Shown here: positions 10,047 through 16,439 of the stretch, piece by piece
Layout of the letters: every line of letters begins with the position of its first letter
Numbering within the stretch: the first letter of the stretch is position 1
Origin: Ruminococcus sp.
GTDB taxonomy: Bacteria > Bacillota > Clostridia > Oscillospirales > Ruminococcaceae
Assembly (NCBI GenBank): GCA_017542475.1
Contig: JAFXXD010000040.1
Coordinates: 1-63,971 of the forward strand
Length of the DNA: 63,971 nt
Direction: 5' to 3'
Translations under genes and position numbers: made by a program
Notes under the pieces: generated by a model
The model's database searches: none
The model's input: the letters and a program-made list of their open reading frames with translations, nothing else
What the model was told of the DNA's origin: nothing

Positions 10047-11964
10047 CGCCGCAAAGGCGATAATGGGACAGGCAGGACTTATCATCATCGGCATTACAGC
10101 GCTTGCGGGCGTGCTGACGGGTATTATCGGAGGCTACCGCGCCTCTATCCGTATCCTCACCACTATGGCAGAGGACAAGATACTCTCCGAACGTTTTTCA
10201 AAGATAGGCAACAGCATAGTATTTGTAATGCTCATCTCGGTATCGCTCGCACTGTTCGGCAGGAACACCCTGAACTGGTTCGTTGACCTTACCTCGTTCG
10301 GCGCTATAGTCGGCTTCGGCTATACCTCGGCAGCAGCCTACAAGCTTGCAAAGACCGAGAGCAAAAAAACAACAGTGATAACGGGAGCGATAGGCACGGT
10401 GATATCCGTGCTGTTCATCATCGTCCAGCTCGTACCGCGGCTCACAGCTATGGAGGCAATGGGCGGACAGGCTTTCCTGCTGCTGTCCTTCTGGTGTCTG
10501 ACGGGCTTCATCTTCTACTGGCGCACCGTCACCAAGGGCAGTCTGACCGAATACAGCGGTATGTCCGCATCGGGCGTGGTGCTGTTCGCACTGATAGTCT
10601 ACTCCGCATTTATGTGGCTGGCAAAGACTATAGCTGCAAAGGAGAGCATCGACGATGTTCGTTCCGCACTCGTTTACGGCGGAGTGGTACTGCTTCTGGT
10701 CATTTTTACCGGACTTGTCGTAATGCTCCACGTGCAGAATCTTGTCCGCAGGAAGCACGAGGCTTCCGAGCGCGAAAAGATACGAGCAATGGAGAGCGAC
10801 CTTGCAAGGAGCCAGTTCCTGTTCAATATGTCCCACGACATACGCACGCCGATGAATGCAATCGTCGGCTACACCGAGCTCGCGATGAAGCCGCCTGCCT
10901 CCGACGAGCTGCATGACTACCTCGTCAAGATAGAGCGCTCGAACCAGCAGCTTCTGACGCTGATAAACGATATCCTCGAAATGAGCCGTATCGAAAGCGG
11001 CAATGTGGAGCTTGAATACGCTCCCGCCGACCTCACGCGCATTTTCGCGGGTATCGAGGAGCTTTTCTCCGAGCAGATGAAGCAGAAGGAGCAGGAGTTC
11101 GCGGTGCATTTCTCGCAGATAAGCGACCGCTGTGTATGGTGCGACGAAAAGAACCTCACCCGCGTTATCGTCAGCCTGCTCAGCAACGCACACAAATTCA
11201 CTCCCGAGGGCGGCAGCGTGTCCGCTTCGATAGCCCAGACATCAGGCGGAAACGGCTACGGCACATACGAGATAAGGGTACGCGACAACGGTATCGGTAT
11301 GTCGAAGGAGTTCGCCGCGAAGATGTTCACGCCGTTCGAGCGTGAGCGCACCTCTACCGCCAGCGGCGTTGAGGGAACGGGTCTGGGACTGCCGATCTCC
11401 AAAAGCATCATAGACCTTATGGGCGGCACGATAGACGTGTATACAGCTCCCGAAAACGGCACGGAGATCGTGCTTGTGCTGAAGTTCAGGCTTGCAGACG
11501 AGAGTGAACTGCCGCAGAATGAACCGAAGCAGGAAACAGTCGGACAGTCAGTGGACTTCTCCGCAAAGCGCCTGCTGATAGTCGAGGACAACGCTGTCAA
11601 TATGGATATAGCGAAAATGATACTCACGCAGGCTGGCTTCACGGTCGAGACTGCCGAAAACGGACAGCTCGGCGTGGATATGGTGAAGGCTTCTCCCGAC
11701 GGCTACTACGACGCGATCCTGATGGATATTCAGATGCCCGTTATGGACGGACTCACCGCCACAAGAACGATCAGGGCGCTTGAAAACAAGGCTCACGCGG
11801 ATATCCCTGTCCTCGCGATGACGGCAAACGCCTTCAAGGAGGACGAGGAAAAAGCTAAGGAAGCAGGAATGCAGGCGCATATCGCAAAGCCGATAGATGT
11901 TGACAGGCTGCTCAGTACGCTGGCAAGGGTACTGTCGGAGCATGAAAAGGGCTCGGGCTCGTGA
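10036..11964 (+). CDS. APC-type permease fused to hybrid histidine kinase, missing its N-terminal half
   Basis: 642 residues from TTG 10036; a TAA stands immediately upstream. The first 235 residues hold about seven membrane segments that match the second half of amino-acid permeases of the APC superfamily (AKAIMGQAGLIIIGITALAG then VLTGIIGGYRAS, later NTLNWFVDLTSFGAIVGFGY). The first five to six helices of that fold are absent. After a coiled linker come HisKA (MSHDIRTPMNA, about 265), HATPase (LLSNAHKFTPEGG, RDNGIGMS, GTGLGLPISK) and a receiver (LLIVEDNAVNMDIA...ILMDIQMPVMDG). The kinase part is intact. Expression may depend on coupling to tnpV. In intact relatives the permease half presumably senses or transports an amino acid; here it is likely non-functional. 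Confidence 0.8.
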   Translation: MKFDAAKAIMGQAGLIIIGITALAGVLTGIIGGYRASIRILTTMAEDKILSERFSKIGNSIVFVMLISVSLALFGRNTLNWFVDLTSFGAIVGFGYTSAAAYKLAKTESKKTTVITGAIGTVISVLFIIVQLVPRLTAMEAMGGQAFLLLSFWCLTGFIFYWRTVTKGSLTEYSGMSASGVVLFALIVYSAFMWLAKTIAAKESIDDVRSALVYGGVVLLLVIFTGLVVMLHVQNLVRRKHEASEREKIRAMESDLARSQFLFNMSHDIRTPMNAIVGYTELAMKPPASDELHDYLVKIERSNQQLLTLINDILEMSRIESGNVELEYAPADLTRIFAGIEELFSEQMKQKEQEFAVHFSQISDRCVWCDEKNLTRVIVSLLSNAHKFTPEGGSVSASIAQTSGGNGYGTYEIRVRDNGIGMSKEFAAKMFTPFERERTSTASGVEGTGLGLPISKSIIDLMGGTIDVYTAPENGTEIVLVLKFRLADESELPQNEPKQETVGQSVDFSAKRLLIVEDNAVNMDIAKMILTQAGFTVETAENGQLGVDMVKASPDGYYDAILMDIQMPVMDGLTATRTIRALENKAHADIPVLAMTANAFKEDEEKAKEAGMQAHIAKPIDVDRLLSTLARVLSEHEKGSGS

Positions 11965-12202
11965 ATGAAGGAGCCCCATAAACTCCCTTCCCAAAGCTTC
12001 AATTTTAATTTTTTGCCCCATAGGGTACTCCGAGAACGGAAGGATTTTCGCCTTGTCGTTCTGTCGGGAGCACACTATGGGGCAAAATTTTGGACTAAAG
12101 TCTCCGGAAAACGTTCTTTCCCTGCGGGTTCACATAATACTGCTATATAAGCATCACGGTCACGAAGGATGGCTTTATTTTTGGAAAAATTCGGGAAAAG
12201 TA
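11965..12202. other. Intergenic region with a long imperfect hairpin
   Basis: Between the kinase and the radical SAM gene. Apart from the hairpin at 12007-12091 and the promoter at 12203 I see nothing; frames reaching back into it from the radical SAM gene lack an RBS. Confidence 0.5.
12007..12091. repeat. 85-bp imperfect inverted repeat (large hairpin)
   Basis: TTTTGCCCCATAG (12011-12023) pairs with CTATGGGGCAAAA (12075-12087); the stem continues inward with ACTCCGA/GAACG against CGTTC/TCGGGAG. It could be the terminator of the kinase gene, a MITE, or a structured RNA. Confidence 0.65.
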
Positions 12203-12231
12203 TTGATTTTTCCACTCACATATAGTATAAT
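12203..12231 (+). promoter_or_regulatory. Promoter of the radical SAM/dockerin operon
   Basis: TTGATT (12203-12208), 17-bp spacer, TATAAT (12226-12231), 41 bp before the GTG start. Confidence 0.75.
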
Positions 12232-12271
12232 GTTAGTATGGGTAATATTACACAAAAAGCGTGGTGATACC

Positions 12272-13252
12272 GTGGACTATACTATCAGCCTCACAAACAA
12301 ATGCAACCTTAAATGCAGCTACTGCTATGAACGGCACCTCAACACGGAATACGGCAGCCTCAGCGACGAAACGCGCAACAAAATAGCGGACTACATCAAC
12401 GCCCGCGGCGACGCCGACACGGTATACCTCTTCGGCGGCGAGCCGCTGCTGTACAAGGATAACGTGAAGTATTACTGCACGACCGTAAAGGCAAACCGCT
12501 TCGTCATCACGACAAACGGCACCCTCCTCGACGAGGGGTTCATCAAATGGTGCGCCGACAGGAAAAACATCATCATCAATATGTCGCACGACGGCATAAA
12601 ATGTACCGAGCGCGGCGCAGATGTTGCGGTGCTCGACGCGAATCTGAAAATACTGCTGAAATATCAGCCGCGCACACTCGTGCAGCTCGTCTACACGGAG
12701 GAGACTCTCCCCGACCTGTACGACAACATAATGTACCTGAAGGGGCTCGGTGTGCAGAAGGTGTCGGCTGTGCTGGACTCCTTCCTCGTCCCGGCCGATA
12801 TCGACAGCTTCGGGGATATGCTGCGGGAGCAGTGGGAAAAGGTCGCGGCGATACCCGACCTCTTCGTGTTCGAACTCGAATCGAAGAAGAACAGCATAAG
12901 GAAGAATGAGCACCCGCTATGCGAGATATGCAAAAAGAAGGTGTTCATCAACTGGGACGGCAGCTTTTACCCGTGCGTGCAGTTCCAGAACCGCGCGGAG
13001 TTCCGCTGCGGCGACATATTCACGGGTATGGAAGCCGAAAAGGCGCGGCAGGCTCACCCCGACTACCCGATACGCTCGGAGCGGTGCGACGGCTGCGAGA
13101 TAGCCGAATACTGCCGCAACTCCTGCGCGTGCAGGAAAATGGCTACGACAGGCACGCTGAGAGACATCTCGGACGCGGCTTGTATGGAGGAGCAGGTGCA
13201 TATCCTTACTGCACTTGAAATATTAGCAAAGGAAAGAGGTAAGAAATTATGA
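12272..13252 (+). CDS. Radical SAM/SPASM enzyme, candidate peptide maturase
   Basis: 326 residues from GTG 12272; upstream frame extension reads through the promoter, so GTG is preferred. The [4Fe-4S]/SAM site is CNLKCSYC (C11, C15, C18), followed by LFGGEPLLY (GGE motif). The C-terminal SPASM part has CEICKKK, PCVQF, CGD and a CDGC...CRNSCACR cluster, enough Cys for auxiliary Fe-S clusters. This architecture is that of RiPP maturases and anaerobic sulfatase-maturase relatives. Its stop overlaps the start of the next gene by ATGA, and that gene encodes a secreted Thr-rich repeat protein, so that protein is the probable substrate (inference). No transporter/protease gene is attached; the target has its own Sec signal. 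Confidence 0.85.
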   Translation: MDYTISLTNKCNLKCSYCYERHLNTEYGSLSDETRNKIADYINARGDADTVYLFGGEPLLYKDNVKYYCTTVKANRFVITTNGTLLDEGFIKWCADRKNIIINMSHDGIKCTERGADVAVLDANLKILLKYQPRTLVQLVYTEETLPDLYDNIMYLKGLGVQKVSAVLDSFLVPADIDSFGDMLREQWEKVAAIPDLFVFELESKKNSIRKNEHPLCEICKKKVFINWDGSFYPCVQFQNRAEFRCGDIFTGMEAEKARQAHPDYPIRSERCDGCEIAEYCRNSCACRKMATTGTLRDISDAACMEEQVHILTALEILAKERGKKL

Positions 13253-13989
13253 GAAAATTTACTAAAGAAATTGCAGCACTATTAGCCACAGCCGCAGTCA
13301 GCGCCTCTGCGGGAGCAGCCACAGCTTCCTCGGCAGAGGAGGTGACCCGCACGGAAGGCGTGGCTATAAATCCCGAAGTGACCGCGCCCGTTACCACCGC
13401 ATATGACCCTTCATGGGACGAAGAGCCCACCTTCTCGGAGGGCACATTCGAGGCTACGACTACGACCACCACAGGCACATATCTGATGGGCACACAGGTC
13501 TACAACAACACCACCACTACCACCACCACTACCGCAACTGAATGGGAGGATACTCCTCTCGCAGGCGATATTATCGAGACAACTCCCAATGAAGACGATG
13601 AGACCTACTGGGCAGGCGTTGATATGCCCGTAACAACGACCACAGCATTCGACGACTGGGGCACGTCTATGATAGGCACTCAGGTCGAGACCACCACCAC
13701 TACCACCTGCACCGACGATACATGGTTCGCGGGCGGGATAATGGATATTCACAGCGGCAGAGGCGATGCCAACCTCGACGGCAAGCTCTCGGTTGCGGAC
13801 TCCGTCACCATATTGCAATACATCGGCAACAACGACAAGTACGCTATCAGCGAGGAGCAGCGCGAAAGTGCTGACTGCTACAATCCCGGCGACGGACTCA
13901 CAGCAATGGACGCGCTGACTATCCAGCAGGTCGATGCAGGCGTGCTCAGTCAGGACGACCTTCCCGTATATCCCCAATCAGACAACTGA
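13249..13989 (+). CDS. Secreted Thr-rich repeat protein with C-terminal dockerin; candidate radical SAM substrate
   Basis: 246 residues. A signal peptide (1 to about 28) is followed by a low-complexity region in which poly-Thr tracts alternate with short aromatic/Gly motifs: YLMGTQV (78-84), PLAGDII (103-109), YWAGVDM (120-126), SMIGTQV (140-146), WFAGGIM (159-165). The C-terminus is a type-I dockerin: first calcium loop GDANLDGKLSVAD, second, less canonical, NPGDGLTAMDAL. Dockerins bind cohesins on cellulosome scaffoldins or cell surfaces. Translation is coupled to the radical SAM gene (ATGA overlap). Repeated small motifs beside a maturase are typical of multi-core modified peptides, but attachment to a dockerin would be unusual. 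No enzyme domain is visible. Confidence 0.8.
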   Translation: MRKFTKEIAALLATAAVSASAGAATASSAEEVTRTEGVAINPEVTAPVTTAYDPSWDEEPTFSEGTFEATTTTTTGTYLMGTQVYNNTTTTTTTTATEWEDTPLAGDIIETTPNEDDETYWAGVDMPVTTTTAFDDWGTSMIGTQVETTTTTTCTDDTWFAGGIMDIHSGRGDANLDGKLSVADSVTILQYIGNNDKYAISEEQRESADCYNPGDGLTAMDALTIQQVDAGVLSQDDLPVYPQSDN

Positions 13990-14030
13990 TATCGCCGCCC
14001 CTTCCACAACAGAACGGACGTGAACAATAA

Positions 14031-15110
14031 ATGACAATAGCTGATTACCTGTCCGAGCACTGGGGCTTACTGGTCGTGCTGGCGGGTATGGCGATACTTC
14101 TGTATTCCGACAAGCAGCTTGACAGGCGAATGGTATGGCAGATAATCCTCACGAACATAATGCAATTCGTGTATTCCGTATTCTGCTACACCGAGACCTA
14201 CCTCGGCAATCAGGCTGAATACAGCATAATGCGTGCTGTGCTCAGCGCCGCGAACTACTCGCTCATTGCATTCATACTTGTGAGCATTATTATGATAATG
14301 TTCCCGAACGAGAGGAAGCTGCTTTACATACCCGCAGTGATAAACGCGGTGCTGTGCTTCATCTCGGTACCGACGGGCATAGTCTTCTACTTCACAGATG
14401 ACAACCACTTCCAGCGCGGAACGCTCGGCTATCTCCCGTATTTCGTCACGGGACTGTACATATTCTACCTTATCGTATGCATATTCCGCACCCGCAGATA
14501 TCAGATAGAGGACTACATCATACTGATATTCCTCTCGCTGACGGCTCTGCTGTGTATGATAATGCCGCTCGAGCTGCAAAGCTTCTCCGACCACTGGTTC
14601 AACATCACCATTGCTACGGACGTGCTTATCTACTACGTGTTCCTGCTCCAGCAGTTCACGAAGCGCGACCCGCTGACGAAGCTTCTGAACCGTCAGAGCT
14701 ACTACTCCGACACCGAGAAGTACGCAGGCAGCATAACAGCGCTGGTTGCGATGGATATGGACGGCTTGAAGGAAATAAACGACAGCGACGGACACCTTGC
14801 AGGTGATACGGCTCTGAAAACTCTTGCCGACTGCTTCAGCAAGTCAGCTCAGCGCGGACAGCGCGTGTACCGTATCGGCGGCGACGAGTACATCATACTT
14901 TGTATAGGCTCGTCCGAGGCAGACGTGCAGGCGCTGACGGCACGCATAAGGGAGAGAGTGGCAAAGACCGAGTATACCTGCTCTGTCGGCTACGCGATGA
15001 ACACGGACAAGAGCACCGCGGACGTCCTCTACAACCGCGCTGACAAGATGCTGTACGAGGAAAAGCAGCAGTTCTACGAGCGCACAGGAAAGCTCCGCCA
15101 CAAACGATGA
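14031..15110 (+). CDS. Membrane diguanylate cyclase (GGDEF protein)
   Basis: 359 residues. Six or seven N-terminal membrane helices (about 13-205) form the sensor, followed directly by a GGDEF domain (KRDPLTKLLNRQSYY, MDMDGLKEINDSDGH, RIGGDEYIILC). The active-site loop is GGDEY, a conservative change compatible with c-di-GMP synthesis. The usual RxxD inhibitory site is not evident. It lies 41 bp after the dockerin gene in the same direction, followed by a terminator, so it is probably the third gene of the radical SAM operon. Role in that operon is unknown. Confidence 0.88.
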   Translation: MTIADYLSEHWGLLVVLAGMAILLYSDKQLDRRMVWQIILTNIMQFVYSVFCYTETYLGNQAEYSIMRAVLSAANYSLIAFILVSIIMIMFPNERKLLYIPAVINAVLCFISVPTGIVFYFTDDNHFQRGTLGYLPYFVTGLYIFYLIVCIFRTRRYQIEDYIILIFLSLTALLCMIMPLELQSFSDHWFNITIATDVLIYYVFLLQQFTKRDPLTKLLNRQSYYSDTEKYAGSITALVAMDMDGLKEINDSDGHLAGDTALKTLADCFSKSAQRGQRVYRIGGDEYIILCIGSSEADVQALTARIRERVAKTEYTCSVGYAMNTDKSTADVLYNRADKMLYEEKQQFYERTGKLRHKR

Positions 15111-15112
15111 AA

Positions 15113-15147
15113 AAAGCCATAGAGATGATTCTCTATGGCTTTCATTT
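15113..15147 (+). terminator. Intrinsic terminator of the radical SAM/dockerin/GGDEF operon
   Basis: AAAGCCATAGAGA, loop TGAT, TCTCTATGGCTTT then CATTTTT, starting 3 bp after the stop. Confidence 0.9.
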
Positions 15148-15149
15148 TT

Positions 15150-15175
15150 GTAGGGGACGGCGTCCTCGACGTCCC
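15150..15175 (+). repeat. REP element (archetype GTAGGGGACGGCGTCC...)
   Basis: A 26-bp copy of the dispersed palindromic sequence found at least eight times in this window, here between two converging genes. Confidence 0.8.
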
Positions 15176-15239
15176 GCCAATATACGCACAGATTAATGAC
15201 AACTCGCTGTATGCGAAACAACAATTCCGAATTCCGAAT

Positions 15240-16439
15240 TCATTTCCCCGTTTCTCTCTTTATCCTGAAATCAACGGAGCGCTTGAGGTATTCGAGGTAC
15301 TCCTCATCGCGGCACATCGCCTTGCCGATATCGTCCGAGAGCTTGGCGACGGGTCTGCCGTTGACGTACTGGAGCTTGATAACGATATTGAGCGCCTGCT
15401 CCTCGGTATCGTTCGAGCAGAACGTACCGATACCGAAAGACACCTTCGACTTGTCACAGAAGTATTCGTGGAGCTTCTGCGCTCTGTCGAAGTCGAGGCT
15501 GTCGCTGAACAGCAGGAGCTTTGTCTTGGGGTCAACTCCGAAGCTCTTGTAATGCGCGATTATCTTGTCGCCCCACGCGTAGGGGTCACCGCTGTCGTGG
15601 CGGACGCCCGTATAGTTGTTGACCATCGAGCGGTTGAAATCGAGCAGGAAGAGGTCGGTAGTGACGGTATCGGTCAGCGCCGTACCGTTGTCGCCGTCGT
15701 ACTCGTCGTACCAGTCCTTCATCGCGTAGTGGTTGGTATAGGCGAGCGGAATGGAGTCGATACCCTGATACATCTGCACGAACTCATGCGCATATGTGCC
15801 GATAGGCGTTACGTTATACTTCATCGCGAGGTACACATTCGACGTACCCACGCACTTGTCGGTCTCGGTGACGAGGCGCTTCACAACAACGTCCTCCCAC
15901 TCGCGCGAGAGCCTTCTTCGGCAGCCGAACTCCGCGAATTTGAAGGTGTAGGTGCCGTCATTGAGAGCCTTTATCTTGGCGTCGAGACGCTCCTCCGCGG
16001 ACTTCCTCAGCCTGTCGTAGTCGAACTTCATACGGAAGTAGACCTCGTTTACTATCTCAAGCAGGTAAATCTCGAACTGCATAGCCGAGAAGAGCGGACC
16101 GTCCACGACTATCCTCAGCTGACCGTCCCCGTCGAGCTCCGCGATGACGTAGTCGCGTATAGGACGCCACAGCCGCAGGAATTCGACATAGTCGTCCTTG
16201 ATGAAGCGTATCGAGCGGAGGTAATCGAGCTCCTCCTTCTTGAAGCTGAGCGAGCAGAGGTGGTCTATCTGCTCGTTTATCTCCTGCACCATTTCGGGAG
16301 TAAAAACGATGTCCTTATTGCGGCACTTGAAGAAATACTGACCGCAGAGGTCGGTGTGCTTGTGGAAGATGACCTGATCCATATTGAACTTATAGAGGTC
16401 TGTATCGAGCAGCGATACAACTATCGGTTGGAGCTTCAT
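15240..16439 (-). CDS. pncB: Nicotinate phosphoribosyltransferase
   Basis: 399 residues from ATG 16439, chosen because AGGAAG stands 8 bp upstream; a longer frame reaches 16475. The enzyme makes nicotinate mononucleotide from nicotinate and PRPP in the Preiss-Handler NAD salvage route. Visible family signatures are SLLDTDLYKFNMDQVIF at the N-terminus, the substrate-loop EFGCRRRLSREWEDVV, and HDSGDPYAWGDKIIAHY with LLFSDSLDFDRA near the PRPP site. Length is normal. It stands alone between two terminators. Confidence 0.95.
   Translation of the reverse strand: MKLQPIVVSLLDTDLYKFNMDQVIFHKHTDLCGQYFFKCRNKDIVFTPEMVQEINEQIDHLCSLSFKKEELDYLRSIRFIKDDYVEFLRLWRPIRDYVIAELDGDGQLRIVVDGPLFSAMQFEIYLLEIVNEVYFRMKFDYDRLRKSAEERLDAKIKALNDGTYTFKFAEFGCRRRLSREWEDVVVKRLVTETDKCVGTSNVYLAMKYNVTPIGTYAHEFVQMYQGIDSIPLAYTNHYAMKDWYDEYDGDNGTALTDTVTTDLFLLDFNRSMVNNYTGVRHDSGDPYAWGDKIIAHYKSFGVDPKTKLLLFSDSLDFDRAQKLHEYFCDKSKVSFGIGTFCSNDTEEQALNIVIKLQYVNGRPVAKLSDDIGKAMCRDEEYLEYLKRSVDFRIKRETGK

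Follow-up and report, generated by a model that had tools for sequence, protein, structure and literature searches.

The subject of this report is a pair of adjacent genes on contig JAFXXD010000040.1 of a Ruminococcus sp. genome (assembly GCA_017542475.1), the whole analysed stretch of 63,971 nucleotides being referred to as the window. The first gene encodes a radical S-adenosylmethionine (SAM) enzyme with a SPASM domain, and the second, which overlaps it such that the stop of one and the start of the other form ATGA, encodes a secreted protein that contains a recurring glycine motif and ends in a dockerin. The pair is considered here as a candidate two-gene protein-modification unit. A first-pass annotation of the DNA had recognized both genes, their overlap, the dockerin and five short motifs, all of which are found at the positions listed below together with a sixth motif and a possible seventh.

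12272..13252, + strand: radical SAM/SPASM enzyme (326 aa, GTG start, stop ending at 13252)
13249..13989, + strand: candidate substrate, secreted, with glycine motifs and dockerin (246 aa, ATG start)
13249..13287, + strand: near-invariant n-region of the signal peptide, MRKFTKEIAALLA, a possible recognition (leader) segment
13351..13368, + strand: motif TEGVAI, residues 35-40, directly after the signal peptide (TAGV in several relatives)
13435..13452, + strand: possible further motif SEGTFE, residues 63-68, weak
13480..13500, + strand: motif YLMGTQV, residues 78-84
13552..13575, + strand: motif TPLAGDII, residues 102-109 (with leading T)
13606..13626, + strand: motif YWAGVDM, residues 120-126 (uncounted by the six-residue pattern used below, which has no W)
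13666..13686, + strand: motif SMIGTQV, residues 140-146
13723..13743, + strand: motif WFAGGIM, residues 159-165
13762..13986, + strand: type I dockerin (PDB 5m2o, "Group I Dockerin", E 1.9e-8; 5n5p, E 2.6e-8)

The enzyme carries CNLKCSYC at residues 11-18, scores 60.6 bits against PF04055 (cut-off 29.5) and, consistent with the Cys-rich end described in the first-pass annotation, possesses a complete set of SPASM cysteines (7-Cys pattern: C217-x12-G-x4-C235, C272-x2-C275-x5-C281-x3-C285, C304). These cysteines are kept in 30 of 30 aligned enzymes, comprising those of the dockerin-linked clade and one paralog, while the Pfam SPASM score of the window enzyme, 20.0 bits, falls slightly below the cut-off of 21.5. 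The fold model is confident (predicted local distance difference test score, pLDDT, 94), and comparison by VIA-align places it nearest to the solved folds of CteB, ChlB, anSME and TigE. The CteB/SCIFF and PapB ranthipeptide maturases are likewise SPASM radical SAM proteins, and PapB (NF047865) is the best NCBIfam model for the window enzyme, at 101.6 bits with a cut-off of 340. Unlike these maturases, the enzyme is devoid of an N-terminal recognition element (RRE) of the kind associated with ribosomally synthesized and post-translationally modified peptides (RiPPs), since just 7-10 residues precede CxxxCxxC in all 42 aligned enzymes; CteB is alignable only from its residue 94. A role as an anaerobic sulfatase maturase was rejected (TIGR03942, 56.9 bits versus 349.45), as was a sulfatase target, which the first-pass annotation had raised as an alternative: the two PF00884 proteins of the genome lack the C/S-x-P/A-x-R motif.

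These same features bear upon the suggestion that the enzyme epimerizes residues of the motif from L to D, which would yield protease-resistant displayed repeats without any change in mass. The epimerases described in PMC8326336 carry one or two clusters, whereas the window enzyme has cysteines for two auxiliary clusters in addition to the SAM cluster, and its fold scores much nearer to CteB, ChlB and anSME; epimerization is considered unlikely.

The candidate substrate begins with a Sec-type signal peptide, as judged by eye. Residues 2-13 (RKFTKEISALLA) are the most conserved part of the protein, with a mean pairwise identity of 79.5% (0.795), compared with 33% for residues 14-28, 13.5% for residues 29-45 and 43% for the first 22 residues of the dockerin, and no second match to this N-terminus was found in the window genome at E <= 0.01. 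Because the enzyme is without an N-terminal RRE, recognition probably occurs via the initial 13 residues of this signal peptide, and we infer that the signal for export also serves the enzyme as a leader. At the opposite end of the protein, the dockerin scores 12.7 bits against Pfam PF00404, under the cut-off of 22.9 that is passed by all eight relatives scanned (five and three in two scans). Pfam and NCBIfam scans recognized no catalytic or binding domain in the window substrate, and the lengths of its relatives range from 165 to 611 aa, some being shortened by contig ends.

Ruminococci of the gut and rumen carry the pair, and genomic evidence gives good support to the proposal that the repeat protein is modified by the enzyme. 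Among the best 80 of 331 relatives from a scan covering 84,980 species genomes are 31 loci at 48% identity or more, located in Ruminococcus, R. flavefaciens (including strains YL228, MC2020, YRD2003 and XPD3002) and related Oscillospiraceae, with two filed as Clostridium or Clostridiales. The next open reading frame (ORF) starts with an M[RK]KFT-type sequence at 30 of the 31 loci (T being replaced by I in one) and, if of sufficient length, contains the same kind of motif; the contig end is open at L040, L052, L053 and L058, and the partner is absent at L068. Within the genus, the pairing anticipated by the first-pass annotation proved strict: the enzyme (E <= 1e-20) is present in 34 of 125 genomes, and the substrate N-terminus (E <= 1e-6) in the same 34, in every one of which the listed coordinates place the two genes on the same strand and no more than about 30 bases apart. 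Homologs of the repeat protein occurring apart from the enzyme, which that annotation had foreseen as a difficulty, are absent at E <= 1e-6 from the 91 genus genomes without the enzyme. Similarly, in a sample of the family, the same three of 148 genomes hold both partners strongly (enzyme >= 50% identity, substrate E < 1e-10), and 13 others hold weak N-terminal matches only; 16 such matches that were read (E 3e-5 to 0.01) showed no LAG-type motif and had 0-2 matches to the pattern. Examination of 29 neighborhoods, some ended by the contig, revealed the enzyme in 29, the substrate in 25 (by BLAST) and any other family in at most four, with no recurring protease or transporter family, and the pair is thus a bare two-gene unit in shifting contexts. 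As expected of a RiPP-type system, a ribosomal substrate lies beside a dedicated candidate modifying enzyme in 34 of 34 pairs.

Several individual loci are worth recording. Genome G160 contains a second copy of the substrate (L199), far from the enzyme, with IPPLAGTIVA repeats, a dockerin and a stretch of undetermined bases, while at G230:C22:2535-3500 an enzyme frame with an internal stop codon adjoins an intact substrate gene. At L033/L038 and L068, a paralog of the enzyme (48-50% identity) without an adjacent motif protein is convergent to a secreted protein of 930-940 aa with heptad repeats (LxxG), identified by eye, and in two genomes lies near an MMPL-type transporter, also named by eye.

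The glycine motif was counted in 29 substrates (the incomplete L052 and L058 were excluded, and L068 is without a substrate). The motif common to these proteins is aliphatic-[Ala/Val/Ile/Glu/Met]-Gly-x-x-aliphatic (LAGD/LAGT type), in which position +1 takes Thr, Val, Asp, Gly or Glu. A six-residue pattern, drawn from the same 29 substrates in which it was counted, matches 154 times in 3,940 linker residues, as opposed to 35.8 +/- 5.4 times (maximum 53) in 500 shuffles. As a control, 30 dockerin loci of the window genome were fetched and six without a readable dockerin frame dropped; the remaining 24 proteins contain the pattern 36 times in 14,802 residues and a single example of a LAG-type motif. 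Motifs are 18-22 residues apart in 50 of 125 spacings. When all 277 linker glycines were considered irrespective of the pattern, Ala was enriched 4.3-fold at -1, Leu 5.0-fold at -2 and Pro 3.0-fold at -3, and Met 4.4-fold at +2 and 4.8-fold at +3. The glycine motif is the likely site of enzyme action.

The composition of the motif likewise informs the question of what the modification might be. The first-pass annotation had viewed aromatic residues as part of the motif core, and this did not hold up: Phe, Trp or Tyr occurs in 34 of the 154 matches, a figure that under-counts aromatics given the pattern, and at the 277 unpatterned sites no aromatic is among the six commonest residues at -2 or -1, with Tyr third at -3 (20 of 277). 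The YWAG and WFAG motifs of the window protein are a local flavor, the aromatics not being conserved in related substrates. Nor did the poly-Thr tracts, also ascribed to the system, prove specific to it, Thr-rich stretches being common in the genome (66 Thr-rich 40-mers in the 24 control dockerin proteins, with eight pattern matches and no LAG-type motif). Thioether or cyclophane crosslinking, of the ranthipeptide or triceptide type, would accord with the best NCBIfam model (PapB) and the best fold (CteB), both of which are thioether formers. Substrates of PapB carry a Cys, and those of triceptide maturases an aromatic residue, in each core motif, whereas here a Cys lies within about eight residues of 16 of the 154 matches and aromatics are as sparse as described; moreover, CteB and PapB act on a short Cys-rich peptide, and the present substrates are exported proteins that are mostly Cys-free at the motif. 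With so few motifs holding an aromatic or a nearby Cys, and with the PapB score far under its cut-off, such crosslinking is unlikely as a general chemistry and, as an account of the system, highly improbable.

A resemblance in sequence is offered by TvgB/TvgA and TigE, the substrates of which also contain aliphatic-Gly repeats that give rise to cyclopropylglycine, raising the possibility that, as in the action of TvgB on TVGG repeats, a cyclopropane is formed on the Val or Ile that precedes Gly. Each TvgB repeat has Val or Ile at this position, whereas Ala is the commonest residue here (80 of 277 sites, followed by Val with 30 and Ile with 29), and because Ala cannot form a cyclopropane, this chemistry could serve only part of the motifs. 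The Tvg system additionally includes dioxygenase and transporter/peptidase genes, in contrast to the two genes, Sec-type signal and dockerin of the present system. Cyclopropane formation is judged slightly less probable even than epimerization.

Further support for a connection between enzyme and motif is provided by more distant relatives. Enzymes of 25-31% identity (33-35% for L012) in other Oscillospiraceae, Lachnospiraceae and Clostridiaceae adjoin lipoproteins of different architecture, which have a lipobox-like TGC/AGC and motifs such as LAGDV, LMGET and LAGEI. The sequence LAG occurs 18 times in this group versus 0.39 expected, in seven of eight proteins (L012 being excluded as a near copy), and 30 times versus 0.69 expected in the dockerin group, in 19 of 29 proteins. 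As LAG recurs in lipoproteins that are otherwise different and are encoded next to remote relatives of the enzyme, it is the motif, and not the dockerin, that follows the enzyme. A phylogenetic tree groups the lipoprotein-linked enzymes and the dockerin clade together (96/92), with a long branch (3.0) that warrants caution. The n-region of the lipoproteins is different from that of the dockerin proteins, and the form x-P-x-x-x-[Y/P]-x-x-P-x-[Y/I] recurs in 12 of 16 lipoproteins versus 20 of 1,295 background ORFs, the pattern having been drawn from those lipoproteins and the background including some of them. Relative L075 has a weak match (46.8 bits, cut-off 425) to TIGR04133, a radical SAM/lipoprotein system. 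The partner in that system is a lipoprotein, whereas the window enzyme is paired with a dockerin protein whose motif differs.

Other relatives have as partners lipoproteins bearing a GG-rich segment instead, and L234 has both kinds. At loci L072, L081, L086, L089, L090, L092, L096 and L235-L238, lipoproteins whose n-region is related and which contain a segment rich in GG or G (e.g., HWGGSGAGP) are encoded beside related radical SAM enzymes; when five of these (L072, L081, L086, L090 and L092) were scanned, the only domain over a curated Pfam or NCBIfam cut-off was that of the copper amine oxidase N-terminus, in L090. When a lipoprotein-type relative was used for a wider search, 234 of 345 genomes gave matches, most of them at 28-33% identity and tentatively taken for SCIFF-type maturases by length and identity. 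Of 30 loci fetched, the six at 38-47% (L234-L239) were examined, and five of them have an adjacent lipoprotein.

The presence of one motif in two different substrate architectures also bears on the notion that the enzyme and the dockerin protein are mere neighbors and that the true target lies elsewhere. Orphan paralogs of the enzyme lend this notion some substance; against it stand the occurrence of both partners in the same 34 genomes, always adjacent though the surrounding genes shift, and the common motif itself, such that an unrelated target seems very improbable.

Additional features flank the pair on the window:

12203..12231, + strand: promoter-like TTGATT-17-TATAAT upstream of the enzyme gene, agreeing with the consensus at 10 of 12 positions
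14031-15110: gene for a membrane GGDEF protein (diguanylate cyclase), starting 41 bases after the substrate gene
15113-15142, + strand: terminator-like site after the GGDEF gene

Both site scans returned approximately chance numbers. The promoter-like site is weak, since six such sites occur in the region versus 2.7 expected, and four terminator-like sites lie on both strands of 11900-15300 versus 2.9 expected. As 15113-15142 is the only one of these on the + strand and lies beyond the GGDEF gene, that gene may share the transcript. The stretch that the first-pass annotation had ended at 15147 does enclose the pair; the GGDEF gene that it also takes in does not recur in the 29 neighborhoods, and neither does the upstream histidine kinase, and both were discarded as parts of the system. 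Elsewhere, peptide-type clusters at L200 (G160) and L201 (G193) combine short Cys-bearing precursors (three of 61-79 aa and one of 77 aa, respectively) with a subtilisin-like protein and two genes for radical SAM enzymes, as named by eye.

These data suggest, with a probability of roughly two in three, that the pair constitutes a protein-modification unit in which the motif is oxidatively modified before export and the product is then displayed through cohesin-dockerin interaction. In the cytoplasm, the SPASM enzyme would recognize its substrate and oxidatively modify every aliphatic-x-Gly-x-x-aliphatic motif. The change would most likely involve two electrons and about -2 Da per motif, as in the creation of, for example, a C-C or C-O bond or a small ring that includes the aliphatic residues next to glycine. 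The protein would then be exported via Sec with loss of the signal peptide, and its dockerin would dock onto cohesins of the cell-bound cellulosome, presenting several modified motifs on Thr- or Pro/Glu-rich spacers. More broadly, the two groups may together define a hitherto undescribed class of exported, anchored, radical-SAM-modified repeat proteins, in which the Sec signal is the leader, the modification placed on the LAG-type motifs is not a thioether, and the product, instead of being released, is held on the cell by a dockerin in ruminococci or by a lipid anchor in other Clostridia, a generalization for and against which the odds appear even.

Several considerations weigh against the proposed unit. 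Firstly, the -2 Da chemistry is deduced solely from the cluster cysteines, and the wide variation at motif positions -1 and +1 is unusual for side-chain crosslinking. Secondly, the profile used for co-occurrence derives from proteins encoded next to the enzyme and would miss substrates with another N-terminus. Thirdly, the 48-50% identical paralogs without an adjacent substrate in two genomes indicate that a member of the enzyme clade can stand alone. Additionally, a dockerin-type protein of G096 without LAG motifs starts RKYTTQISALL (E 3.3e-5), and the recognition segment is hence not wholly private to the system. Finally, the dockerin may be a habit of a genus that is cellulosomal throughout.

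With regard to this last point, the window genome contains 109 dockerin and 12 cohesin matches (E <= 0.01), 10 of the cohesins over the cut-off, so that docking partners exist, as the first-pass annotation had supposed. Cohesins are present in 119 of 125 genus genomes, including 33 of the 34 with the enzyme, and for this reason cohesin content is useless as a discriminating test; display by the dockerin is plausible and is not singled out by co-occurrence. Proteins with a type I dockerin in the R. flavefaciens cellulosome have homologous dockerins (5m2o/5n5p) and Thr-rich spacers likewise, and the window protein differs from them in having an enzyme-associated glycine motif in place of a recognized catalytic or binding domain.

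SPASM enzymes that modify peptides are known mainly from products that are released, and as a SPASM-modified repeat system the present one is unusual for its exported, anchored substrate. We know of no cellulosome part with a radical-SAM modification, nor of such a modification on fiber-degrading cell surfaces, and a search of the literature, the coverage of which omits most subscription papers, returned none joining radical SAM, dockerin and RiPP or R. flavefaciens. A precedent for action on a protein is QhpD, the maturase of quinohemoprotein amine dehydrogenase, described in PMC11002830 and PMC8326336 as a SPASM enzyme that acts on a protein and not on a released peptide; QhpD makes Cys-Asp/Glu thioethers, whereas the motif described here has no conserved Cys or acid. 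With a two-gene unit and a clear motif in strains of R. flavefaciens, the chemistry of a displayed modification, as well as its role, would be directly testable in fiber-degrading bacteria of the rumen.

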